Notes: generated by a model from the letters alone, not told the origin. A DNA stretch of 64,000 bases from Roseiflexus sp. RS-1 (GCF_000016665.1 NC_009523.1:5703501-5767500), one strand, 5' to 3'; counted from the stretch's first letter, positions 8,770 to 54,012 are shown. Program-made: numbers and translations.

Positions 8770-8798
8770 TTGACAACCCTGATCTTGTGAGATATTAT
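8770..8798 (+). promoter_or_regulatory. sigma-70 promoter of the Mg2+-riboswitch operon
   Basis: TTGACA (8770-8775), a 17-base spacer, then TATTAT (8793-8798). This is near consensus and places transcription start about 8805, roughly 12 bases before the aptamer. It is divergent from the PHA operon. Confidence 0.85.
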
Positions 8799-8816: not shown

Positions 8817-8968
8817 GTTGCTCCCTGGTAGGCGCGGCTTCACACAAACACAGGTTACTGCTCCGGCCCGTCGAAAGACGCTCAGGGGCGCACAGCAGGC
8901 TCGGCTTAAGGGCTTTGCCAAGGTAACTACGGTTCAACCGTTACGTTGTGTGAAAGCTTAAGATCAAC
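8817..8968 (+). ncRNA. M-box (ykoK leader) Mg2+ riboswitch aptamer
   Basis: Conserved M-box blocks appear in order: GGTAGGCGCGGCTTC near the 5' end, the CGTCGAAAGACG hairpin, GGGGCGCACAGCAG, CTTAAGG with CCAAGGTAACTACGG, and GTGTGAAAGCTTAAGA before the closing strand. The P1 strands are GTTG (8817-8820) and CAAC (8965-8968). M-boxes bind several Mg2+ ions and switch expression of Mg transport genes off when Mg2+ is plentiful. The downstream CorA-like and MgtC genes fit this. Recognition is from memory of the consensus, not from a covariance search. Confidence 0.88.
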
Positions 8969-9030
8969 CGGAGGGGGAGCGTTCGCAAGAGCGTTCGATC
9001 CCTCTGGCAATGCCAGGGGGATTTCTATTT
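8968..9030 (+). terminator. riboswitch expression platform: antiterminator and intrinsic terminator
   Basis: The terminator is an 11-bp stem from 8998 to 9022 (ATCCCTCTGGC / GCCAGGGGGAT, loop AAT) followed by TTCTATTT. CCGGAGGG at 8968-8975, directly after P1, can pair with CCCTCTGG inside the 5' arm of the terminator. That gives a mutually exclusive antiterminator. The sequence supports transcriptional OFF control when Mg2+ stabilises P1. Confidence 0.85.
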
Positions 9031-9039
9031 GAGGCAGAT

Positions 9040-9123
9040 ATGGACGAAGGCGGTCATTGTAGTCGGCGGCGCAACGCCGCAACAGCACTCCAGACGCATC
9101 TCCTTCTCGTCAGTGTCGCGTAG
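9040..9123 (+). CDS. possible 27-aa leader peptide in the riboswitch 5' UTR
   Basis: ATG at 9040 has GAGG 5 bases upstream and encodes 27 residues (MDEGGHCSRRRNAATALQTH then LLLVSVA) between the riboswitch terminator and a second hairpin at 9147-9173. Nothing is recognisable in the peptide. Leader peptides are known upstream of enterobacterial mgtA and mgtC, so the position is suggestive. Chance remains a serious alternative. Confidence 0.25.
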   Translation: MDEGGHCSRRRNAATALQTHLLLVSVA

Positions 9124-9446
9124 TTCTGGCTACGTTCCTTCTTGACACCCTGGCGAGAAAGGTGCGCCAGGGTTGTTTGTTGAGCGCAAGCCCGATGTGC
9201 GCACCCCCGGCGCGCATCTCCCATCCACGGCGTTGCGCTGCTGTCTTCCAGGTCTCTGACAACAATTTGTGATTGCACGCTACAACCGTCTGTCCCTTGC
9301 TGGCAGGCGGTCAGGGAGCGCTTGCTCTCCGTTGTGCGTGCATGTCGGTCGGCGCCGATCGTCGGATCGCGCGCATGGTTTGTTGCGCCCTGCAACCGCC
9401 GCACAGATGGAAACTTTTGGCTTGAAGGCGAAAGGAGGAACCCGCG
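9124..9446 (+). other. long untranslated leader segment with second hairpin
   Basis: No convincing gene is present. A 9-bp stem ACCCTGGCG/CGCCAGGGT (9147-9155 with 9165-9173) is followed by TGTTTGTTG and may be a second weak attenuator. A TTGACA lies immediately 5' of it at 9142-9147 without a clear -10. The rest up to the ribosome site at 9431 shows no structure I could assign. Confidence 0.4.
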
Positions 9447-9665
9447 ATGCTGACGATCCGCTGGACGATGGACAAAGATGGGCGCCTGACCGCGACATTC
9501 GTGCGCCCGAAGAAGGTGCGCCCGCTCTCGCAGACCACCGACATGCCACAAACACTGGTGATCCGCAATCGCCGGACTCAGACCGCCACGACGCTGCAGC
9601 GCGCAGCGACAGGCGAGCGAGCGCCGGAACCAGAGCCGATGTATCAGGTCGTCGGAGTCGAATAA
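9447..9665 (+). CDS. small basic protein of unknown function, first gene of the Mg operon
   Basis: 72 aa, start supported by AAAGGAGG 9 bases upstream. MLTIRWTMDKDGRLTATF could form a short beta hairpin; the rest is polar and Arg/Thr-rich, ending EPMYQVVGVE. No membrane segment, Cys pair or known domain. It is followed 23 bases later by the next gene, so it belongs to the riboswitch operon. Function unknown. Confidence 0.6.
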   Translation: MLTIRWTMDKDGRLTATFVRPKKVRPLSQTTDMPQTLVIRNRRTQTATTLQRAATGERAPEPEPMYQVVGVE

Positions 9666-9688
9666 GCGCACATTCGGAGGAACTGCTT

Positions 9689-10066
9689 ATGCTGGCAACC
9701 ACACACCTCTATCGCCAGGCGACGCTGCGCTGGTTGCTGATCGAAGCCATCCAGCGCGCCTGGCGTCGCCACCAGGTGATCGTGTCACTCTATCGGCGTC
9801 TGGCAGATCGAGCGCCCGATGAGCGGCACGAGATCCTGTTGATCCGGATGGCGGAACAGGAACGCTTCCACCAGCAGCGCTATGAGCGGATGTTGACTCG
9901 ACTGCATGCTCTGCCGTCCGAAGGTCTCGACTCTTTTGACCGCGTCTGGCTGTGGCTCCTGCCACGCTGCGGTTCGGACGTTGCACTGCGCTGGGCTGAG
10001 TGGATCGAGCAGCGCGATACGCGAGCGATTCTGGATGCGGCGCTGCTCCTGCGCGCCTTTCGGTGA
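9689..10066 (+). CDS. helical protein, possibly ferritin-like, in the Mg operon
   Basis: 125 aa, start supported by GGAGG 7 bases upstream. Almost entirely helical. The stretch LLIRMAEQERFHQQRYERML (near residues 50-70) has the E-x2-H pattern seen in ferritin-like helices, such as the cytosolic domain of VIT1/CCC1 transporters. A second helix pair follows (WAEWIEQRDTRAILDAALLL). No membrane helix is evident. A metal-binding or accessory role in the transporter is inferred from the motif and the operon; no specific family was recognised. Confidence 0.6.
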   Translation: MLATTHLYRQATLRWLLIEAIQRAWRRHQVIVSLYRRLADRAPDERHEILLIRMAEQERFHQQRYERMLTRLHALPSEGLDSFDRVWLWLLPRCGSDVALRWAEWIEQRDTRAILDAALLLRAFR

Positions 10067-10161
10067 CCATACCGGCTGTGAGAAGCCTCCTGACAACGAC
10101 GACGTTGCGTTCGATGTTGGAATCTCGTTACCAAAGCCTTGACCATCTCAGGAGGACACGT

Positions 10162-12174
10162 ATGCGCGTGACGTTTCCTGACGCGGGCGTGCTGCGCCCG
10201 CGCTTCAAGCTGACGCCCTGGGACCTTGTGGTCGTCCCGCTGGTGATCGTGGCGATCCTGTTGCTGACGGTCGCGTTTCAGGGCGCGTCGCAGCCATTCG
10301 ATGAGACGACGCCTGATCTAACTGTTTCTCTAAATCCTGCCAACCTGCCCTATTACGGGTTGCGGACGGTGTTCCGCATGTTCCTTGCTGTGCTGCTGAG
10401 CCTGCTGTTCACGTTCACCGTGGCGACCCTGGCAGCCAAGTCGCGGCGCGCTGAGATCGTTATCATTCCAGCGCTGGATTTCCTCCAGTCACTGCCAATC
10501 CTGGGGTTCCTGACGGTGACAACGGCGATTTTTCTCGGCATGTTCCGCGGCAGCCTGCTCGGTCTGGAGGCGGCCAGTATCTTTGCAATCTTTACCTCGC
10601 AGGTGTGGAATATGGCCTTTAGCTTCTATCACTCGTTGATCACCACGCCCAGGGAGCTACAAGAGGCTGCTGCCGTGTTACGGCTCTCGCCGTGGAAAAA
10701 GTTCTGGAAGCTGGAAGTTCCTTTCGCAATGCCCGGTCTCATCTGGAACACAATGATGTCAGTATCGGGCGGGTGGTTCTTTGTGGTCGCCTCTGAGGTC
10801 ATCTCGGTGGTCGGGCGCGACAATGATCAGTATCTGCCTGGAGTCGGCTCGTATGTCGGGCTGGCGATTGAGCAGGCGGATGTTGCGGCGATGGTGTATG
10901 CCGGTCTGACGTTACTGATAATCATTCTGATCTACGACCAGTTGATTTTCCGCCCTATCGTCGCCTGGTCTGAAAAATTCAAGTTCGAGCAGTCTGAGGC
11001 GCAGGAAGTTGCACAATCGTGGATGCTGCGTTTGTTGCAGCGGTCGGGGATCGCCAGCAGCCTGGGTGCGCTTGGCGCCGCGATCCGCCAGAGCATTCCG
11101 GTTCGGCTGACGGGTGATCATCCTGGTCCGCGCGTCGAACCGCAACCATCGCTGCGACCGATTGATCGTGCGATTGACCGGATCTGGTATGCGCTCGTGA
11201 TCGCAGCGGCGCTGTGGGCGGTATGGTTCCTGGCGACGTATATGTTCGGTCCGGGGCTGGGTTTCGATAATGGTCGGATTCTGGCGGCAAATCCAAATGT
11301 CAATACCGATCTCAACCCGGAGATTGCCCGCCGTTTTGCTGCCGTCGGAGTCACGGTCAACCCCGATCATACAGTCTGGCTGTCGGCTGTGTGCGCAGTG
11401 ACCGCAGACGGGACGAGAGTCGGTGCAGAGATGGCGGAAGTGCTGCGTGACGAGCGCGTCGGCGCGCCGGGTGATCTGGCCGCCGCCTGCGCTACACCCA
11501 TGGTACCTGCAGGCAAAGTATCCTGGTCAGAGGTACTGGAGTGCCTGTGGCTTGGACTGCTCACGACTATGCGAGTGGTGATCTGGATCGGCATCTCGAC
11601 ACTGGTCTGGACTCCGATTGGGGTCTGGATCGGATTGCGCCCGCGGGTCGCCCAGTTTGTGCAGCCGCTGGCGCAGTTTGCTGCTGCTTTCCCCGCTAAC
11701 CTGCTCTTTCCGATTGCAGTGGTGCTCATCGCTACCTATGCGCTGCCGCAGAACCTGTTTCAGGCGCCACTGATGATTCTGGGAGCGCAGTGGTACATCC
11801 TGTTCAACGTGATCGCTGGCACGATCAGCATTCCAAACGATCTGAAAGAGGCTGCCCGGGTGCTTGGTCTGCGAGGGTGGGCATGGTGGCGCAAACTGAT
11901 TATTCCGGCAATCTTTCCAGCGTTCGTCACCGGCGGGATTACGGCTTCGGGCGGTTCCTGGAATGCGTCCATCGTCTCTGAGGTCGTGTCGTGGGGCGCA
12001 ACGACCCTCACCCTGACCGGTCTGGGCGCCTACATCGCCTACTGGAGCACTGGCGAGTTTAACCCGCACGTCGGTTTGGGCATGCTCGTAATGGGATTGC
12101 TCGTTCTGGGATTCAACCGCCTGTTCTGGCGCCGACTCTATGCGCTGGCTGAAACCCGTTTCCGTCTGGATTAG
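10162..12174 (+). CDS. fused two-domain ABC permease (NitT/TauT-like), Mg operon
   Basis: 670-aa membrane protein with two binding-protein-dependent permease domains in one chain. Each half has an EAA loop: PRELQEAAAVLRLSPWKKFWKLEVPFAMPG in the first and DLKEAARVLGLRGWAWWRKLIIPAIFPA in the second. An extra segment of roughly 100 residues after helix WAVWFLATYMFG (about residues 350-460) contains two Cys and probably lies outside the membrane. The GGAGG site 7 bases before the ATG fixes the start. Its ATPase partner is at 15842. No substrate-binding protein is encoded nearby. The paralogue at 50938 lacks the insertion. Position behind the M-box suggests transport linked to Mg2+; nitrate or sulfonate uptake is the family default. 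Confidence 0.88.
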   Translation: MRVTFPDAGVLRPRFKLTPWDLVVVPLVIVAILLLTVAFQGASQPFDETTPDLTVSLNPANLPYYGLRTVFRMFLAVLLSLLFTFTVATLAAKSRRAEIVIIPALDFLQSLPILGFLTVTTAIFLGMFRGSLLGLEAASIFAIFTSQVWNMAFSFYHSLITTPRELQEAAAVLRLSPWKKFWKLEVPFAMPGLIWNTMMSVSGGWFFVVASEVISVVGRDNDQYLPGVGSYVGLAIEQADVAAMVYAGLTLLIIILIYDQLIFRPIVAWSEKFKFEQSEAQEVAQSWMLRLLQRSGIASSLGALGAAIRQSIPVRLTGDHPGPRVEPQPSLRPIDRAIDRIWYALVIAAALWAVWFLATYMFGPGLGFDNGRILAANPNVNTDLNPEIARRFAAVGVTVNPDHTVWLSAVCAVTADGTRVGAEMAEVLRDERVGAPGDLAAACATPMVPAGKVSWSEVLECLWLGLLTTMRVVIWIGISTLVWTPIGVWIGLRPRVAQFVQPLAQFAAAFPANLLFPIAVVLIATYALPQNLFQAPLMILGAQWYILFNVIAGTISIPNDLKEAARVLGLRGWAWWRKLIIPAIFPAFVTGGITASGGSWNASIVSEVVSWGATTLTLTGLGAYIAYWSTGEFNPHVGLGMLVMGLLVLGFNRLFWRRLYALAETRFRLD

Positions 12175-12212
12175 GGAGTGTTATGACCTCTAGAAAAGAC
12201 TGGAGACACACA

Positions 12213-13154
12213 ATGACAACGAGTGACATCACTTCTGCATCGGCTCGTGAGCGTCTGCTTCAAGCGGGTTGGATGAGGCTGGACCGGCAGCAAGGTGATC
12301 GGCTGGCGGAGGTGAAACACATGTATGGCATCGATCTGTCGGCAAGGGTCGGACGCGCGGCAGTTGAGGAGTACGGCTTTGTGATCATCCCGGTCGACCT
12401 GATCGTTTACCAGCATCATGAATACCGGGAGACAAACGTTGTGTTCGCCCTCGGCAACTCCGTGCTGATCAGTGTCGAGCACGATGCGCGTCTTGGCGCG
12501 TTGGATGTGGCAAGCCGAATCGTGCTCGAAGAAGTTCAGGCTGGCAAGACCCATGATCCTGCTTCTGTCCTGTTTCTCATTCTGCAATCGCTCAACGACG
12601 CAGCTCATGCGACCATCCGGGAGATCTCCGAGCGTCTCGACGAACTTGGCGAGTCTGTAGCCACTGCAGGGGGCGGCTACCAGATAACTGGGCGCCAGGT
12701 CGGTGTCGCAGACATCGCCGATACGGTAGTCACACTGGCTGAAGCCGAAGAACTGGTTGCGAAGACAGTCGAGAGCCAGTTGATGCTTGCCCGAGCCGTC
12801 CGCTGGCTGCGGCGTGTTGCGGGTCATACGCAGTTTGGTCAGGCGCTGCCCACGCTGTTGTCGGACATCCATAGCCTGCGGCGCTACGCGCACTTTCAGC
12901 ACGGCAAGATCCGCAACCTGCAGCAATCGCTGATGACCACGCTCGATCTCAAGCAAAACAATGTGATCAAAGTGTTCACCATCGTGACTGCGGTCTTCAC
13001 GCCGCCGACCCTGGTCGCCGCCTTTTACGGACAAAACTTTGCTGAGATGCCCGAACTGTTTCTGCCATGGGGAGAATGGGCGGTCATCGTTCTTACGGGC
13101 TTGAGCGCCATTCTGCCATTGTTTTACATCAGAAAGAAGGGGTGGATGCGATGA
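12213..13154 (+). CDS. CorA-like protein 1 with GQN in place of GMN
   Basis: 313 aa with CorA architecture: a soluble alpha/beta N-terminal domain, long helices (about residues 90-245) and two C-terminal membrane helices. TM1 VIKVFTIVTAVFTPPTLVAAFYG ends in GQNF (residues 273-276) where CorA has GMN, followed by MPEL, then TM2 and a basic end (RKKGWMR). In known CorA channels GMN forms the Mg2+ selectivity site and substitutions abolish transport, so function may differ. An ATG at 12183 is possible (GGAG at 4 bases), but 12213 has GGAG at 7. Its stop overlaps the start of the next paralogue (ATGA). Confidence 0.85.
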   Translation: MTTSDITSASARERLLQAGWMRLDRQQGDRLAEVKHMYGIDLSARVGRAAVEEYGFVIIPVDLIVYQHHEYRETNVVFALGNSVLISVEHDARLGALDVASRIVLEEVQAGKTHDPASVLFLILQSLNDAAHATIREISERLDELGESVATAGGGYQITGRQVGVADIADTVVTLAEAEELVAKTVESQLMLARAVRWLRRVAGHTQFGQALPTLLSDIHSLRRYAHFQHGKIRNLQQSLMTTLDLKQNNVIKVFTIVTAVFTPPTLVAAFYGQNFAEMPELFLPWGEWAVIVLTGLSAILPLFYIRKKGWMR

Positions 13155-14050
13155 AAAAGGTCAACGAACTACCTGCCTGGGTTCGCCTGCAGGTAAGCAA
13201 CCAGCAGGAGCTTGAAGATGTAGCCCGAATGTATGGGCTGCCCCTGACGACCGAGACCATGGTTCGACCTGAAGGCGTCCTGCGCATTCGCTGTACAAGA
13301 CTCGAAGGGTTGCGCCTGTTAGTGACCGATATGCTGTGGTTCCAACGTGACGATCAGACTCCCCTCTACACGGTGGAGACAGTTCACGGTGAGCTATGGC
13401 CCGGTCAGGCGCGCGAGTGGATGCAGGCTCAGGGGCTTCCGTTTGAAAGTTCCCACGCGACGGCGCTGGTTCTCTTGCACCAGTTAGTGGTCCAGACGGC
13501 AAAAGTGCTCGACGCGATCGATGATGGGTTGAGCGTAGCCGGGCACGTTAATGCTCGCCTCCTGACGAATGTTGGCACTGATGAGGCTGGCGGAGTTGAG
13601 GATGTAGCAAACTTAGATGCTTACCTATCGACCCTGCCTGCCCCGCTGTCTTTCGTGTTGCAATCGTTATACGACCTGGAACGGGCCGGGCGCCAGCTGC
13701 GCCGCGCTGTTCTTCAACGGTCATGGTTGACGGTTGAGCGCGTTGATGAATTGGTCGCCGAGATTGAAAGCGTGCAGCGACGTGCATGCTTCATGCAGGA
13801 GAGACAGCGATTTCATCAACTGGCAGCGCAAGAAACCGTCGCAATGAGCGACCTGAATGTGGTCAAGGTGTTCACAGTGCTATGGGCCATATTTGTACCG
13901 GGTACCGCCTTGATCAACTGGTATGGGCAGAACTTTCGGTTCATGCCGGAGTTGTCGTGGTTTGCCTCCTCGTGGGTACAAATGCTGGGCGTGCTATTAG
14001 TGACAGCAGTGCCCGTGATCATCATCAGACAAGCGGGGGCGCTCAGATAA
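13151..14050 (+). CDS. CorA-like protein 2 with GQN in place of GMN
   Basis: 299 aa, start overlapping the stop of CorA-like 1 (ATGA), so probably translationally coupled at fixed ratio. Same layout: soluble N-terminal domain, long helical stalk with ERVDELVAEIESVQRRACFM, then TM1 LNVVKVFTVLWAIFVPGTALINWYG, signature GQNF (residues 259-262), MPEL, TM2 and a short RQAGALR end. It is diverged from paralogue 1, so the duplication is not recent. It might form mixed pentamers with its neighbours; this is inference. Confidence 0.83.
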   Translation: MKKVNELPAWVRLQVSNQQELEDVARMYGLPLTTETMVRPEGVLRIRCTRLEGLRLLVTDMLWFQRDDQTPLYTVETVHGELWPGQAREWMQAQGLPFESSHATALVLLHQLVVQTAKVLDAIDDGLSVAGHVNARLLTNVGTDEAGGVEDVANLDAYLSTLPAPLSFVLQSLYDLERAGRQLRRAVLQRSWLTVERVDELVAEIESVQRRACFMQERQRFHQLAAQETVAMSDLNVVKVFTVLWAIFVPGTALINWYGQNFRFMPELSWFASSWVQMLGVLLVTAVPVIIIRQAGALR

Positions 14051-14085
14051 CGATACACAACAGATGAGCGGAGGGAGGTCCAACA

Positions 14086-14409
14086 ATGCAACAGTTTACT
14101 TACGGCAGATGGTCTGGTGGGGTTGACACTCCCACAGAACCTCTCGTCTGGACACGAACTATAGACCGTGCGCAGAGCCAGACGTCTCGATACAAACCAT
14201 CAACGCGCTGGACCCGCTACGAAAAATTGTCATTCGTCATGATGGGTCTCGCCTGGGGTATCACGATTGCGATCGTGACGGCGCTGCATTTTGGCAACTA
14301 CCATCTGGAGACGCGCACGTCTTCCACATCGGGTACGCACAGGGAGTTTTATCTTGAGAAGAACGTCATTCCCGATAACTCGTCCGAAGGTGAAGGAGGA
14401 TCTCGATGA
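14086..14409 (+). CDS. small single-pass membrane protein in the Mg operon
   Basis: 107 aa, start supported by GGAGG 8 bases upstream. A polar N-terminal half is followed by one membrane helix (LSFVMMGLAWGITIAIVTAL, about residues 48-67) and a Ser/Thr/Glu-rich C-terminal tail. The basic RWTRYEK before the helix predicts the N-terminus inside. Its stop overlaps the CorA-like 3 start (ATGA), tying it to that protein. No family recognised. Confidence 0.7.
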   Translation: MQQFTYGRWSGGVDTPTEPLVWTRTIDRAQSQTSRYKPSTRWTRYEKLSFVMMGLAWGITIAIVTALHFGNYHLETRTSSTSGTHREFYLEKNVIPDNSSEGEGGSR

Positions 14410-15350
14410 GCCAGAACGAAGCGTTTTCGGTTCCAGTTACTATCAATCAGACGCCCCCGGTTAACCGGTGGCTGCGTGTCAGCGCTGCCCAGACCGATGC
14501 ACTCGCAGTGATCAAGCAACGCCTGGGCATCGACCTTATCCAGACTGTGACAAGCGGTATCAGCCAGGTAGGGGAATTCCTGATTTACCCTCTGACGTTT
14601 CTGAGCGTCGAGGGGAACAAGAAGATAATCAGCAAGGTGATCTTTATAGTTGGGCGGGAGATTCTTGTCTCCCTGGAGCCAGAGCCTGCTCCAAAACCGC
14701 TCGGCGTCGCGGTATCACGGATGCAGCGTGACGGACGTGATAACGATGCATTCGAAGCCTTCGCTATTGTCTTGCAGTCGATCAACGATGCCACCGACGA
14801 ACTGCTCGACTCGTTGAACGAGGATCTCGGCGAGGCGCTGGTGCAGACGAATGCCGTTCTCAATAGCCTCGAATCACGCGAGCGTGACTTCGGGGTCAGC
14901 GATGTCGTATCGACCCAGGTTGAGTTGGGCGTAGTCGAGGATTTGCTTTCGGAGTGCATCCAGACCCAACTGCAACTCGCCCTGGTGGCGAGACAAACGC
15001 TGGCGCGTCTTCCGCAGGAGTTTTCCCATCTCAGGCAACGTTACCACACCCTCATTGATGACATCGAAGGGGTCGAGGAGCACGTGCATTTCGTCCATGA
15101 CCGTGTACGTCTCTTACAAACGTCCAATAACCTGGCGCTGAGCGTCAAGCAGAATCAGATTGTCAAGGTGTTTTCGGTGCTCACCGCAGTGTTTCTGCCC
15201 GCTCTACTCATTTCGACGTACTACAGCATGAATTTCGCCTATATGCCTATCCTGGAGTGGCAGTACGGCGAGCCGATGGTTATCGCCCTGACGGCGTTGC
15301 TGGCGCTGCTGCCACTGATTTACGTCAAACAGCGCGGGTTGCTACGGTAA
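14406..15350 (+). CDS. CorA-like protein 3 with SMN in place of GMN
   Basis: 314 aa, third CorA-type paralogue. The helical stalk includes SVLTAVFLPALLISTYY as TM1, then SMNF (residues 274-277): the Gly of GMN is lost while Met-Asn is kept. MPILEW, TM2 (MVIALTALLALLPLIYV) and KQRGLLR follow. The soluble domain carries the usual SINDATDELLDSLNEDL-type helix. It is coupled by ATGA to the preceding small membrane protein. As with the other two, CorA ancestry is clear but Mg2+ conduction is uncertain. Confidence 0.85.
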   Translation: MSQNEAFSVPVTINQTPPVNRWLRVSAAQTDALAVIKQRLGIDLIQTVTSGISQVGEFLIYPLTFLSVEGNKKIISKVIFIVGREILVSLEPEPAPKPLGVAVSRMQRDGRDNDAFEAFAIVLQSINDATDELLDSLNEDLGEALVQTNAVLNSLESRERDFGVSDVVSTQVELGVVEDLLSECIQTQLQLALVARQTLARLPQEFSHLRQRYHTLIDDIEGVEEHVHFVHDRVRLLQTSNNLALSVKQNQIVKVFSVLTAVFLPALLISTYYSMNFAYMPILEWQYGEPMVIALTALLALLPLIYVKQRGLLR

Positions 15351-15432
15351 TTGAATGACGCAAGTTTTTACCGGTGGTCTGCAAACGCCTTAGAACACCG
15401 GTGCTAACCCCTCGCACAAGGAGGCGCTGATC

Positions 15433-15762
15433 ATGAAGAAGCTCTCGTATGAAACGATGGATGAGACGTTTAACGGCACAGCCAGCTTCGGACTTGTTTG
15501 GAACGCTGACCTGACGCTTCAGGACGACATTGCCGGGGCTGCGCAGCGGCGGCGCGAAGCCATAGCACGGGCCCGCGCCAATCGTCCCCGCATTGCGCAA
15601 CTCGAGCGGGAGATCATTCAGGCCGTCATTGTGTTGTACTTGCTGATCCTGGGCAGTTTTGCAGGGCTGCACCTGTATGGCAGGTATACGATAGCGGCGC
15701 CGGTGCAGCAGGTCGAGACCACCGAAAACGGGTCGAGTCAGATTGAACCGGCAGAAAGGTGA
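15433..15762 (+). CDS. second small single-pass membrane protein in the Mg operon
   Basis: 109 aa, AAGGAGG 9 bases before the ATG. An N-terminal polar region with an Arg/Ala-rich helix (AQRRREAIARARANRPRIAQ) leads into one membrane helix (AVIVLYLLILGSFAGLHLYG, about residues 64-83) and a polar tail. Topology resembles the 14086 protein but there is no convincing sequence similarity. It lies directly before the ATPase gene. Function unknown; a transporter subunit or regulator is possible. Confidence 0.68.
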   Translation: MKKLSYETMDETFNGTASFGLVWNADLTLQDDIAGAAQRRREAIARARANRPRIAQLEREIIQAVIVLYLLILGSFAGLHLYGRYTIAAPVQQVETTENGSSQIEPAER

Positions 15763-15841
15763 TGGACCAGCGGTGGTGACGTGCGTGTATGGCATCGATT
15801 CTGGCTGAGGCCGCCAACGCCTTAGCTGAAAGGAGCGGCAT

Positions 15842-17179
15842 ATGGCGATGACCCTGATACCGAAGACGACAGCTGGCGTCGGGAAAACGATCCTGAGCGT
15901 CCGCAATCTGCGTAAACTCTTCAAAACGCCCGAAGGCAACGATCTGCTGGTGCTCGACAACATCAATCTGGACCTGGCGGAAGGTGAAATTGTCGCTCTG
16001 CTGGGACGCTCCGGATCTGGTAAATCAACACTGCTCCGTTGTCTCATCGGGCTGATTTCGCCGTCGAGCGGGGAGGTGCGCTACCGCAATCGACCGGTGA
16101 CCGGTCCGATGCCCGGGATGGCGATGGTGTTCCAGTCCTTTGCGCTCTTCCCGTGGCTGACGGTGCTGGAGAACGTTGAATTGGGACTGGAAACGATGGG
16201 AGTGCCAGAGGGGGAGCGCCGTCGGCGGGCGCTGGCCGCAATCGACCTGATCGGTCTCGATGGGTTTGAAAGCGCCTACCCGAAAGAACTGTCGGGCGGC
16301 ATGCGCCAGCGGGTCGGCTTCGCCCGCGCGCTGGTGACGAACCCCGACGTCTTGCTGATGGACGAGCCGTTCTCAGCACTCGACGTGCTGACGGCGGAAA
16401 ATCTGCGCACCGAGCTGCTTGATCTCTGGGAAGCGCGGCGCATTCCGACGCAGGCAATTCTGATGGTGACGCATAACATTGAAGAAGCGGTTCTGATGGC
16501 TGACCGGGTGCTCATTCTCAGTTCCAACCCCGGACGGATCATCAGCAACGAACCGATCGATCTGCCTCGACCGCGTGATCGCAACGATCCCGCATTTCTC
16601 GCCAGGGTCGAGACGATCTATCGGGCAATGACGACGCCAGCAGCGGCATTTGTCGGCGCTGTCGATGTTGAGAGCGATCGCACCAGCCTGGGGATGCGTC
16701 TGCCGGAAGCGGAAGTAGCGCAGATCATCGGGCTGATCGAGCAGGTGGAAGCAGGGTCGGAACAGGGGCGCGGCGATCTTCCGGAACTGGCTGCTGGCAT
16801 GCAACTCGATGCAGACGACCTGTTTCCGCTGATCGATGCAGCCGAGTTGCTGGGTTTTGCGCAGACCCGCGAGGGGGATATCAACCTGTTGCCGGAAGGG
16901 GTGAAACTGGCCCGGAGCGACATTCAGGAACGCAAAGTGATCTTTGCCGAACATCTGATGAATCGCGTTCCGCTGGTGGCGCACATCCGGCGCGTCCTCT
17001 CCACGCGCCCCGATCACCGCGCGCCGCGTGAGCGATTTCTCACGGAGCTGGAAGATTTTATGGGCGCCGAAGAGGCTGCCAGCACGCTCGATACAGCGAT
17101 TGAATGGGGGCGCTATGCCGAACTGTTCGAGTATGATGCGCGTGAGGGGCGTCTGCGCCTGCCAGAGAACGGCGGTTGA
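15842..17179 (+). CDS. ABC transporter ATPase with C-terminal AAA-associated domain, Mg operon
   Basis: 445 aa. The nucleotide-binding domain has Walker A GRSGSGKS (residues 56-63), Q-loop VFQSFALFPWL, signature LSGGMRQRVGFARAL, Walker B VLLMDEPFSALD and switch His in MVTHNIEEA. This is the NitT/TauT subfamily. Residues from about 285 to 440 form an extra domain (AAA-associated C-terminal type) with a winged-helix-like look, ending GRYAELFEYD. AAAGGAG precedes the ATG. Its partner permease is at 10162. The paralogue at 52702 shares both domains. The C-terminal domain might sense a ligand; this is inference. Confidence 0.92.
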   Translation: MAMTLIPKTTAGVGKTILSVRNLRKLFKTPEGNDLLVLDNINLDLAEGEIVALLGRSGSGKSTLLRCLIGLISPSSGEVRYRNRPVTGPMPGMAMVFQSFALFPWLTVLENVELGLETMGVPEGERRRRALAAIDLIGLDGFESAYPKELSGGMRQRVGFARALVTNPDVLLMDEPFSALDVLTAENLRTELLDLWEARRIPTQAILMVTHNIEEAVLMADRVLILSSNPGRIISNEPIDLPRPRDRNDPAFLARVETIYRAMTTPAAAFVGAVDVESDRTSLGMRLPEAEVAQIIGLIEQVEAGSEQGRGDLPELAAGMQLDADDLFPLIDAAELLGFAQTREGDINLLPEGVKLARSDIQERKVIFAEHLMNRVPLVAHIRRVLSTRPDHRAPRERFLTELEDFMGAEEAASTLDTAIEWGRYAELFEYDAREGRLRLPENGG

Positions 17180-18034: not shown

Positions 18035-18076
18035 TTGTGCAGCGATCTCACCATGCAGAGAGGAGAAAGGCGCCAG

Positions 18077-18919
18077 ATGAACATTGGTCTGGATGTGATG
18101 CGACTGATAGGACCTATCGACCCTGTGACGATGGGACGGTTGTTACTGACGATGGTGTTGTGCGGATTGATCGGGATCGAACGTTCTGGGCACGAGCGCG
18201 CGAGTGGCTTTCGTCCCCATATTCTGGTCGGATTAGGAGCATGCCTGGTAACCATGGCAGGCGCTTACGGCTTTGCCGAGTTGACAGGAGAGCGTGATGC
18301 GTTGCGTGTGGCAAGTTATGTGGTGTCGGGGATAGGGTTCATGGGCGCTGGCGCAATCCTGCGTCATGGCACAACGGTGCGCGGTTTGACGACGGCAGCG
18401 ACCCTGTGGGGGTGCGCCGGAATAGGAGTCACAGTGGCGACCGGTCTGGGATGGTTAGCTATCTTCGGCACCCTGTTGTTTCTCTTTACATTGACGATCC
18501 TTGAGTGGGTCGAGGCGCGCCTGAATTTTGGCGGACCGGTAAGTCGCCTGCGCATCCATCTATACGACGACAACCGCGCTGTCGGCAAGGCGCTCGATGC
18601 GCTCGCACGTCTCGGCGCGCCGGTCAAACGCGCCACCGTCCTGCCCGGCGCCGGAACCTCGGCGCTGCTCGATGTCGAACTCACACGGGCGCTCACTGCG
18701 GATCAGGCGCCGCTCCTGGCAAAGCAGTTGCTGACGCTCAAAAAGTACGTCGCGCAGGTCGATACAACCGTCGCACCGCTGGATGAACCCGCAGATGACG
18801 AGGAGCCGGCGGAAGCGCAGGATGAGAAGGTTGTGCCACTCAACCTGAGCGACGACGATCTTCTGCGTGATCTCAACGATCAGGACGAGAAGGAGAAAAC
18901 TCCGGCGCCACGCGCCTGA
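18077..18919 (+). CDS. mgtC: MgtC/SapB-family membrane protein
   Basis: 280 aa. The N-terminal membrane domain has the MgtC hallmarks: MGRLLLTMVLCGLIGIER, GFRPHILVGLGACLVTM, RVASYVVSGIGFMGAGAIL and VRGLTTAATLWGCAGIGVT. A soluble C-terminal domain (about residues 165-240) may be ACT-like, then a long Asp/Glu-rich tail (from about 235). MgtC proteins help cells survive low Mg2+ and in Salmonella act on the F1Fo ATPase. Start at 18077 was chosen over an upstream frame start because of the GGAGAAAGG site. Last gene of the M-box-linked run, though 206 bases separate it from the Nudix gene. Confidence 0.9.
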   Translation: MNIGLDVMRLIGPIDPVTMGRLLLTMVLCGLIGIERSGHERASGFRPHILVGLGACLVTMAGAYGFAELTGERDALRVASYVVSGIGFMGAGAILRHGTTVRGLTTAATLWGCAGIGVTVATGLGWLAIFGTLLFLFTLTILEWVEARLNFGGPVSRLRIHLYDDNRAVGKALDALARLGAPVKRATVLPGAGTSALLDVELTRALTADQAPLLAKQLLTLKKYVAQVDTTVAPLDEPADDEEPAEAQDEKVVPLNLSDDDLLRDLNDQDEKEKTPAPRA

Positions 18920-50937: not shown

Positions 50938-50984
50938 GTGGGGCTGAAGCCCTCGGCTAACCAGGGCAAAGCCCGCCTGCGCGG
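50928..50984. repeat. short repeat element at the permease start, flanked by GCTATAC
   Basis: About 57 bp including CCGTGGGGCTGAAGCCCTCG and AGCCCGCCTGCGCGGGCT, of the palindromic type common in intergenic regions of this group (recalled, not searched). Flanked by 7-bp direct repeats GCTATAC (50921-50927, 50985-50991). Confidence 0.5.
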
Positions 50985-52683
50985 GCTATACCGGATTATT
51001 TCTTCAAAGACCATTACCGCTGCGGATAGCATCATCGTGCTGATCATCGTCGGGTTGCTGGCGCTCGGCATCTGGCTGGCGGAAGCAGCGCCGGCAGAGG
51101 TGCGTGGACCGGAGATAAGTCTGTCGATTACAGCGCTGCCATTCTACGCATTCCATTCGGTGGGTCGAATGGCTGCTGCGTATGCGCTATCACTTGGCTT
51201 CACCCTGATCTACGGCTACGTCGCCGCCTACAATCCGCGCGCCGAGCGGGTGCTGATGCCGTTGCTCGATGTGTTGCAGAGTGTGCCGATCCTTTCGTTC
51301 CTGCCGGTCGTGCTCCTGAGTTTTACCGCTATCCTGCCGGAAGGCATCGCCGTCGAACTCGCCTCGATTGTGCTGATCTTCACCAGTCAGGTCTGGAACA
51401 TGACCTTCGCATGGTATCAGTCGCTTACCACCGTACCGCGCGAACTGCGCGAAGCAAGCAGTATTTTTCGTTTCACCCGCTGGCGCCGCCTGACAACGCT
51501 GGAACTGCCGTTTGGTGCGCTTGCCCTGATCTGGAACAGTATGATGAGTTGGGCTGGCGGATGGTTCTTCCTGATGGCAGCCGAGATTTTTACCCTCGGT
51601 GCACGTGATTTTCGCCTGCCGGGGCTGGGGGCGTACCTGCAAACAGCGGCAAATGCAGAGAACCTGCCAGCCATTGGCTACGGCATTGCGACCCTGATCG
51701 TCGTTATTGTCCTGCTCGATCAACTCATCTGGCGTCCGCTGCTGGTCTGGGCGGATCGGTTCAAACTCGAAATGGTTGAAAGCGATAATCCGCCGCAATC
51801 GTGGTTCTACGATCTGTTGCAACACGCAACGCTGAAAGATGTGATCGGCGGGGTTGTTGCACCGGTTGGTCGCACACTGGATGCGCTGTTCGACCGATTG
51901 CTCCCATTGCCCCGCGCCACGAGCGGCGACACGAACAGCGGCTTCCGGATCGGATGGCTGTTTCTGGCGCTCATCGGCGCGGCGGCAGTGGCAGGGACGC
52001 TGCTCGGCGGGCGGATGCTGATCCAGGTTTCGCCCGAACAGTGGCTCGGCATCGGCATTGGACTCGGCGCAACTTTCCTGCGCGTCGTGGCGGCGCTGGC
52101 GATTGCGCTGATCTGGACTGTGCCGCTGGGCGTCTATATCGGCATGCAACCGCGCGCTGCGGCTGTACTGCAACCGATCATTCAGATCGTTGCGTCCGTT
52201 CCGGCTACGGCGCTGTTTCCCGTTCTGGTGTTGGCGCTGCTGAGCATTCCCGGAGGACTCAACATCGCCGCGGTCTTGCTCATGCTGCTCGGCACTCAGT
52301 GGTATGTGCTGTTCAATGTGATTGCCGGCGCATCAGCCATCCCGCAGGATCTGCGTTATACGACCGATCTGTTGCAATTGAGCGGATGGCAACGCTGGCG
52401 CACGCTTATCCTGCCCGCTCTGTTTCCCTACCTGATCACCGGGATGATCACCGCCAGCGGCGGCGCATGGAATGCCAGCATTGTTGCAGAATTTGTGGTC
52501 TTCGGCGGGCAAACGTACCAGAGTACCGGCGTCGGCGCCCAGATCACGTCCGCCACCGCCGATGGCGACTATCCACGCCTGCTGGCAGCCACGCTGGCTA
52601 TGGTGATAACCGTCGTGGCGATCAATCGCCTCGTCTGGCGACGCCTCTATCGACTTGCTGAAACTGTGTATCGTATGGAATAG
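50938..52683 (+). CDS. fused two-domain ABC permease (NitT/TauT-like), second system
   Basis: 581 aa, two permease domains in one chain, paralogous to the M-box-linked permease at 10162 but without its roughly 100-residue insertion. EAA loops: PRELREASSIFRFTRWRRLTTLELPFGAL and QDLRYTTDLLQLSGWQRWRTLILPALFPYL; the second has lost the EAA residues. The annotated GTG at 50938 lies in a repeat that supplies the first 16 residues, so the true N-terminus is uncertain. ATPase gene 18 bases downstream. No binding protein is encoded nearby. Substrate unknown. Confidence 0.85.
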   Translation: MGLKPSANQGKARLRGLYRIISSKTITAADSIIVLIIVGLLALGIWLAEAAPAEVRGPEISLSITALPFYAFHSVGRMAAAYALSLGFTLIYGYVAAYNPRAERVLMPLLDVLQSVPILSFLPVVLLSFTAILPEGIAVELASIVLIFTSQVWNMTFAWYQSLTTVPRELREASSIFRFTRWRRLTTLELPFGALALIWNSMMSWAGGWFFLMAAEIFTLGARDFRLPGLGAYLQTAANAENLPAIGYGIATLIVVIVLLDQLIWRPLLVWADRFKLEMVESDNPPQSWFYDLLQHATLKDVIGGVVAPVGRTLDALFDRLLPLPRATSGDTNSGFRIGWLFLALIGAAAVAGTLLGGRMLIQVSPEQWLGIGIGLGATFLRVVAALAIALIWTVPLGVYIGMQPRAAAVLQPIIQIVASVPATALFPVLVLALLSIPGGLNIAAVLLMLLGTQWYVLFNVIAGASAIPQDLRYTTDLLQLSGWQRWRTLILPALFPYLITGMITASGGAWNASIVAEFVVFGGQTYQSTGVGAQITSATADGDYPRLLAATLAMVITVVAINRLVWRRLYRLAETVYRME

Positions 52684-52701
52684 CGATGCAGGGGTGAATG
52701 T

Positions 52702-54012
52702 ATGGCGACGCTGAACGGCGCGGTGCTGGTTGAACTGCGCAATGTCGCACAGCGCTACGGGCGCGGCGAGAAGCGCTTCACCGCCATCGAGCATATCAAT
52801 CTGACCATCCGTGAAGGGGAATTTGTCGCGCTGCTCGGTCCGTCGGGGTGTGGCAAGAGCACGCTGCTGCGCATCATTACCGGGTTGAACCAACCGAGTG
52901 ACGGCGAGGTTCGCTACCGTGGCGCGCCGTTGCGCGGCGTCAACCCGTATGCAACGATTGTGTTCCAGTCGTTTGCGCTTTTCCCGTGGTTGACCGTTGA
53001 GGCAAATGTGGCTATTGCGATGCGTGCGCGCGGCATACCTGCGGAACAGGCGCACGCCCGGGCGATCGAGTTGATCGATATGGTCGGACTCGACGGCTTC
53101 GAGCAGGCATACCCGCGTGAACTGTCGGGCGGTATGCGCCAGAAGGTCGGGATTGCCCGCGCCCTCGCGGCAAACCCCGAACTGCTCTGCCTCGACGAGC
53201 CGTTCAGCGCCCTCGACGTGCTGAGCGCCGAGACGTTGCGCGGCGAAGTGCTTGAACTCTGGACCGGCGGTCAACTCCAGATTCGCGCAGTGTTGATGGT
53301 AAGCCACAACATCGAAGAAGCGATCTTCATGGCAGACCGGATCGTGGTAATGGATAAAGGTCCGGGACGGATCATTGCCGAAGTGCCGGTTACGCTGCCG
53401 CACCCGCGCGACCGTAAATCGGAAGCGTTCGTCACCCTGACCGACCGTGTCTACGGCATTCTCATGGGGCAGACGCAACCAGAGCATGTCGAGTTCGGCA
53501 CCGAACCAGGGCAGGCTGGACGCACCCGCGCATTGCCCAACGCCGAAGTGACCGAACTCGCCGGTTTGCTTGAACATGTGAACAGCACCCCCGCTGAGCG
53601 TGATGATATCTATCAACTGGCGGAGGAGTTAGGGCTGGATTTCAACAATCTGCTGGCGCTGGTCGAAGCGGCGGAACTACTCGGATTCGCCCGTGTCGAA
53701 ACCGGCGACCTGATCATTACACCGTTGGGAGAAACGTTCGCCGACGCCAGCATTCTGACGCGCAAAGAAATCTTTGCATCGCGCCTGCGGCGCCTGCCCT
53801 TCTTCCGCTGGATGCTGCGCATGCTGGAAGCGTCGGGAGAACGGTCGCTGCGCCGCGAAGTGCTCCTCACCGCCCTGGAACGCGACTTCCCTCCCGACGA
53901 GGCGGAACTGCAACTCGACATCGCCAGCAAATGGGGACGCTATGCCGAATTGTTCGGCTATGACGACGCCCAGGGACGCTTTTTCCTGGAAGATGTGGCT
54001 GTCACCGTATGA
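52702..54012 (+). CDS. ABC transporter ATPase with C-terminal AAA-associated domain, second system
   Basis: 436 aa. Walker A GPSGCGKS, VFQSFALFPWLTVEANV, signature LSGGMRQKVGIARAL, Walker B LLCLDEPFSALD and SHNIEEA. Residues about 280-430 form the same extra C-terminal domain as in the 15842 ATPase, ending GRYAELFGYDDAQG. The two ATPases are clear paralogues. Its 3' end overlaps the convergent dehydrogenase gene by 11 bases. Confidence 0.92.
   Translation: MATLNGAVLVELRNVAQRYGRGEKRFTAIEHINLTIREGEFVALLGPSGCGKSTLLRIITGLNQPSDGEVRYRGAPLRGVNPYATIVFQSFALFPWLTVEANVAIAMRARGIPAEQAHARAIELIDMVGLDGFEQAYPRELSGGMRQKVGIARALAANPELLCLDEPFSALDVLSAETLRGEVLELWTGGQLQIRAVLMVSHNIEEAIFMADRIVVMDKGPGRIIAEVPVTLPHPRDRKSEAFVTLTDRVYGILMGQTQPEHVEFGTEPGQAGRTRALPNAEVTELAGLLEHVNSTPAERDDIYQLAEELGLDFNNLLALVEAAELLGFARVETGDLIITPLGETFADASILTRKEIFASRLRRLPFFRWMLRMLEASGERSLRREVLLTALERDFPPDEAELQLDIASKWGRYAELFGYDDAQGRFFLEDVAVTV

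Follow-up and report, generated by a model that had tools for sequence, protein, structure and literature searches.

Textbooks present CorA as a homopentameric Mg2+ channel, with the GMN motif taken as its selectivity filter. GxN is regarded as the filter of the family, whose members have been called homo- or hetero-pentamers (PMC6972854). The locus described here is a cassette of three CorA paralogues (CorA1, CorA2, CorA3) and two small proteins, s1 and s2, each with one transmembrane (TM) segment. It resembles E. coli-type CorA (PF01544, 2-TM-GxN), its sister group in the tree, in fold, in the two C-terminal TM helices, in the filter asparagine, in the MPEL loop (CorA1, CorA2) and in the phenylalanine at the position of TmCorA L294. 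In contrast to that type, it has three apparently obligate paralogues, lacks GMN, includes two dedicated one-TM partners and stays below the cut-off of the NCBIfam corA equivalog TIGR00383 (CorA1 109.9, CorA2 31.1 and CorA3 99.9 vs 200.75 bits).

Two further systems invite comparison. In yeast, Lpe10 modulates an Mrs2-based channel, according to a reference cited in PMC9276622; as far as that source goes, the likeness to our cassette, two CorA-family proteins in one membrane, is a resemblance only. The yeast pair differs in being encoded by two genes and in belonging to eukaryotic mitochondria. We know of no small partners of Mrs2/Lpe10. The other system is NrmT, through which the M-box earlier led to a genuine new class of Mg2+ transporter (PMC4072509). 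Like the putative channel in Roseiflexus, it was an unexpected transporter behind an M-box, and it was later shown to transport Mg2+, but it is Nramp-related, with an unrelated fold and a single subunit. Searches of the open literature for heteromeric or tandem bacterial CorA, and for CorA in Roseiflexus, returned nothing relevant; the cassette is real and conserved, and apparently undescribed in that literature.

We analysed a 64,000-nucleotide stretch (hereafter the window) of the single-contig, 5,801,598-bp genome of Roseiflexus sp. RS-1 (G000:C1:5703501-5767500). The cassette consists of five genes:

12213..13154, + strand: CorA1 (GQN, MPEL), start alternatively 12183; PF01544, 127.9 bits; GQN in 13/13 orthologous sequences
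13151..14050, + strand: CorA2 (GQN, MPEL); PF01544, 48.0 bits; GQN in 14/14 orthologous sequences; CorA fold (Foldseek)
14086..14409, + strand: s1, a 107-aa one-TM protein whose tail, TSSTSG(S/T)H, is conserved; present in all complete cassettes
14406..15350, + strand: CorA3 (SMN, MPI); PF01544, 162.4 bits; SMN in 13/13 orthologous sequences
15433..15762, + strand: s2, a small one-TM protein (GLVWNxDL...ER...TM...HxYG); present in all complete cassettes

All three CorA proteins score above the Pfam cut-off for PF01544 (27 bits). Their filter and loop motifs read YGQNFAEMPEL (CorA1), YGQNFRFMPEL (CorA2) and YSMNFAYMPIL (CorA3), so that none has GMN and all keep the filter asparagine; their C-termini are basic. 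The sole further CorA of the genome (G000:C1:2979558-2980424) carries GMN, and GQN or SMN was found in 0/48 of the non-trio CorA sequences collected. The Pfam match of CorA2 is limited to its C-terminal half; in its predicted structure, the CorA fold extends along the whole chain (AF2 model, with low confidence in the TM part). The best Foldseek match of this model was the cytosolic domain of E. coli CorA (E 6.5e-8), and matches to E. coli and T. maritima CorA had E values of about 1e-7. The AF2 models of both CorA2 and CorA3 comprise an N-terminal alpha/beta domain, a long stalk helix and two C-terminal TM helices.

An earlier note on this DNA had described three adjacent CorA-fold genes with GQN, GQN and SMN in place of GMN, each retaining CorA architecture, an MPEL-like loop (MPI in CorA3) and a basic C-terminus. 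The open reading frames, PF01544 matches, motifs and predicted structures bear this description out. Its further statement that ATGA overlaps join all three genes holds for CorA1 and CorA2, whose stop-start overlap reads GATGCGATGA, and fails for CorA3, which is overlapped by s1 and not by CorA2. The note had missed both s1, which lies between CorA2 and CorA3, and s2, which follows CorA3. No Pfam family matched s1 above its cut-off, a profile-profile comparison of s1 with s2 was not significant, and a tblastn search of plasmids with s2 gave no match.

The cassette lies in an operon headed by a riboswitch that the earlier note did not mention. Its other elements are:

8770..8798, + strand: sigma-70-like promoter TTGACA-17-TATTAT, 11/12 consensus matches, assigned by consensus alone; 18 nt before the M-box
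8817..8983, + strand: M-box Mg2+ riboswitch aptamer RF00380; 113.4 bits, E 1.6e-24, model 1-169/169
8997..9023, + strand: terminator-like hairpin after the M-box; 12-pair stem, then TCTATTT
9447..9665, + strand: 72-aa leader ORF, conserved in M-box operons (matches in L125, L127-L130, L035-L037)
9689..10066, + strand: 125-aa protein, weakly rubrerythrin-like (18.4 bits, below the cut-off of 22.8), conserved with the M-box
10162..12174, + strand: fused double ABC permease (BPD_transp_1 x2, Pfam); a neighbour, outside the cassette
15842..17179, + strand: ABC ATPase with an AAA_assoc_C domain (PF00005 + PF09821); a neighbour, outside the cassette
18035..18919, + strand: MgtC-family protein (PF02308, 112 bits) at the operon end; mgtC is beside the cassette also in L093 and L134

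The M-box is full-length and exceeds the RF00380 gathering score of 44, and the hairpin that follows it is probably its expression platform. No Pfam family was found for the 72-aa leader ORF. The gene order on the + strand is 72-aa ORF, 125-aa protein, permease, cassette, ABC ATPase, NUDIX protein, MgtC. Because strand and spacing agree, the whole stretch from M-box to MgtC appears to be a single transcript.

In about ten Chloroflexales genomes (the window, L035-L037, L125-L130), the genes of the ABC transporter itself (fused double permease and ATPase-AAA_assoc_C) follow an M-box, in most cases with MgtC as well. No binding protein was seen in this M-box ABC operon, which possibly encodes a Mg2+-related ABC system. 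A second, paralogous pair of fused permease and ATPase-AAA_assoc_C genes occupies window positions 50938-54012, with no CorA between the genes. The start of this second permease gene region contains an Rfam CRISPR-DR28 match (41.5 bits, window 50965-50988), and the same model matches in L129.

The five genes are inherited as a unit. A single scan of 84,980 genomes with CorA3 yielded 12 loci, 11 of them complete cassettes: one in a Chloroflexi metagenome-assembled genome (L134) and ten in Pseudomonadota, namely Pseudomonas reidholzensis, P. fluorescens PS910, Bordetella trematum, Alcaligenes (three), Comamonas (three) and Enterobacterales CwR94. The Pseudomonadota CorAs share 53-69% identity with their window counterparts, and the gene order there is s1-CorA3-s2-CorA1-CorA2. 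All five genes are present in every complete cassette found (the window, the Chloroflexales genome G118, L134, the ten Pseudomonadota and G421). The 4-nt CorA1/CorA2 overlap was present in 11/11 cassettes examined from two phyla, and the s1/CorA3 overlap was conserved in those checked. The distribution is rare and patchy: 5/268 genomes of the A. faecalis family, 1/249 of Pseudomonas and 2/400 of Chloroflexota. CorA2 and CorA3 profiles match exactly the same five genomes of the A. faecalis family, the fifth of which, G421, carries the complete cassette. On the Serratia marcescens plasmid pET_W2, a broken remnant comprising part of CorA1 plus CorA2 lies near transposase genes; plasmids otherwise carry distant single CorAs. 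Viral contigs searched with the CorA2 alignment contained no relative, and phage records held distant CorAs only, with less than half of the query covered.

Gene neighbourhoods differ between the two phyla. All three Chloroflexota cassettes have an upstream M-box and mgtC: the order is M-box, a relative of the 125-aa protein, CorA1, CorA2, s1, CorA3, s2, mgtC in G118 (L093), and M-box, a weak relative of the 125-aa protein, mgtC, CorA1, CorA2, s1, CorA3, s2 in L134. Rfam searches of the Pseudomonadota cassettes detected neither an M-box nor another Mg2+ riboswitch. Most Pseudomonadota loci have a histidine kinase and a FixJ/NarL-type response regulator after the cassette, and several encode a small protein weakly like MgtE_N. 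The Alcaligenes and Bordetella loci contain an ORF that fuses a P-type cation ATPase piece to a porin, and the Comamonas loci contain a porin alone. In L136 (11312-13069) and L137 (11269-12987), an N-terminal P-type cation ATPase piece (Cation_ATPase_N, E1-E2_ATPase) is joined to a Gram-negative porin, and this ORF adjoins the cassette.

Pore positions were assigned in TmCorA numbering, anchored on the filter asparagine. Phenylalanine occupies position 294 in all three proteins, as in E. coli-type CorA. CorA1 keeps N288 and T305; CorA2 has N288L, A298W and G309N; in CorA3, position 305 is M or L, position 312 is S, and MPI replaces MPE. Each paralogue has invariant pore residues of its own, and the GQN, GQN and SMN filters are kept in all orthologous sequences compared from the two phyla. 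By a simple count method, dN/dS between the window and G118 is 0.13 (CorA1), 0.17 (CorA2), 0.12 (CorA3), 0.31 (s1) and 0.125 (s2). By the same method, pS is 0.39-0.55 for the cassette and 0.755 for the adjoining mgtC, which suggests that the cassette was exchanged later than its neighbour. Pairwise distances among the three CorAs correlate (r 0.91-0.94); such correlation is expected from co-transfer alone and also fits three separate complexes.

In a 71-row tree, each paralogue forms one clade (100/99 or better), and the trio together with a GMN CorA from a Streptomyces plasmid (L170) makes up a clade adjacent to E. coli-type CorA. ZntB-like rows (C_L154, C_L156, C_L157) form a separate clade, with the trio outside it. 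A second tree, with L186 added and distant rows dropped, unites the trio (89/82), each paralogue at 97-100%, and the single-gene GMN CorAs L186 and L170 branch just below it. Neither tree contains an Mrs2 sequence. The earlier note had raised the question of whether the three paralogues group as a separate clade; in the second tree they do, rather than being scattered among ordinary CorAs, and they stand apart from the ZntB-like rows. Since L170 interrupts the trio in the first tree and support is 89/82 in the second, strict monophyly is likely, not firmly supported.

These two GMN CorAs are the closest tree branches, and each has a one-TM partner. L186 (Pseudomonas genome G654, 8920-10950) contains, in this order, mgtC, an s2-like one-TM protein and, immediately after it, a single GMN CorA; the small protein matches s2 by tblastn (E 2e-4) and is the best of 4,476 sequences against the s2 profile (E 9e-4). 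L170 (plasmid pSSP121038, 4702-5885) has a one-TM protein, with weaker resemblance to s2, directly upstream of its CorA. Both loci resemble the cassette in the s2-like partner, and L186 also in its link to mgtC; they differ in having one CorA, in keeping GMN and in lacking s1. Judged from sequence, they look like an ancestral form of the cassette. Given that the GMN CorAs below the trio have a one-TM partner, triplication of a unit of CorA plus small partner is the simplest account. We found no description of a single GMN CorA with an s2-like partner in the literature searched, and this type of locus may possibly represent an overlooked two-component CorA.

Because the same five-gene set recurs in unrelated bacteria and is placed behind an Mg2+ switch in Chloroflexota, it probably encodes one mixed-subunit Mg2+ channel. 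Our preferred reading, at a probability of roughly 0.57, is a single membrane complex: a heteromeric CorA channel of three obligate subunits with s1 and s2, induced by Mg2+ starvation and derived by triplication. CorA1 (GQN), CorA2 (GQN) and CorA3 (SMN) would be non-interchangeable subunits of a pentamer-like divalent-cation channel, with s1 and s2 as its single-TM accessory subunits. In Chloroflexota, the cassette would be made when cytosolic Mg2+ falls, because it is predicted to be transcribed behind the M-box. Alongside MgtC, the channel would most likely let Mg2+ in with a changed affinity or gating, and it would have arisen by triplication of an ordinary GMN CorA plus one s2-like protein beside mgtC. 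From these comparisons we infer hetero-assembly, stoichiometry, Mg2+ as the substrate and the direction of transport. The heteromeric pentamer offered by the earlier note is thus the best-supported interpretation, on the grounds of unit inheritance, the all-or-none presence of CorA2 and CorA3, the conserved overlap and the invariant pore residues. A fuller account that combines an obligate three-subunit CorA, two small TM subunits, an asymmetric GMN-less filter, a two-component ancestor and horizontal spread between phyla seems to us evenly poised between right and wrong.

Several points count against parts of this reading. The Mrs2 variant G441A;M442A;N443A shows reduced growth (PMC11919701); since changing GMN impairs Mrs2, a GMN-less channel may not conduct Mg2+, which weighs against an ordinary Mg2+ pore. 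Operon linkage would also fit three separate complexes, the Pseudomonadota cassettes lack an M-box, and the collection scan gave only 11 complete loci.

The absence of GMN from all three proteins would also suit an Mg2+ sensor or regulator complex that is derived from CorA, does not conduct ions and controls MgtC or other transporters, as would the linkage to mgtC in all Chloroflexota cassettes and the kinase-regulator pair after most Pseudomonadota ones. We consider this unlikely: the filter asparagine and the TM1/loop region are nearly unchanged across phyla, a constraint beyond the need of a dead pore, and the precursor-like loci keep GMN.

It is improbable that the operon co-expresses three independent homopentamers, each a channel with altered selectivity (e.g. 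for Mg2+, Co2+ and Ni2+). It is true that the domain plan of CorA is complete in each protein, that the CorAs that have been characterised form homopentamers (PMC6972854), and that the Pseudomonadota genomes and the window genome keep other CorAs. However, independent channels would be expected to come and go singly, whereas CorA2 and CorA3 are all-or-none, and the two shared accessory proteins and conserved translational overlap point to a joint product. Moreover, with leucine at 288 and tryptophan at 298 of the pore helix, CorA2 is unlikely to form a homopentameric pore.

The cassette is independent of the neighbouring ABC transporter, for which the earlier note had alternatively proposed the CorAs as regulatory subunits. 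The boundaries of the cassette are visible by comparison of occupied and empty sites:

12171..15825, + strand: cassette insertion in the permease-ATPase junction; TTAG flanks at 12171-12174 and 15822-15825

The empty site of the very close relative G338, whose ATPase is 99% identical, has the sequence 'gat TAG TCGAAAGGAG'; the window cassette is bounded by TTAG at 12171-12174 and by TTAG-CTGAAAGGAG at 15822. In eight relatives (G338, G340, G341, G134, G190, G094, G314, G306), the ATPase gene comes immediately after the permease gene and no CorA intervenes, and an M-box precedes the ABC pair in 7/8 of them. Conversely, the permease is gone from G118, whose ATPase is a frameshifted C-terminal remnant between s2 and mgtC (L093 7166-7604), indicating that the transporter was lost while the cassette stayed. 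No ABC gene is present on the 5.4-kb contig of L134. Since the ABC pair occurs without the cassette and the cassette without an intact ABC transporter, including at the Pseudomonadota loci, which have no such permease-ATPase pair, an obligate ABC-subunit role is refuted, and even an auxiliary role, suggested by the position between the permease and ATPase genes in Roseiflexus, is hardly credible.

If the preferred reading is true, a conserved natural channel of three CorAs, none with GMN, would allow direct tests of which filter residues are truly required for Mg2+ selectivity and of the way in which a five-fold channel becomes asymmetric. The s1 and s2 partners further suggest that accessory subunits of some ordinary CorAs have been overlooked.
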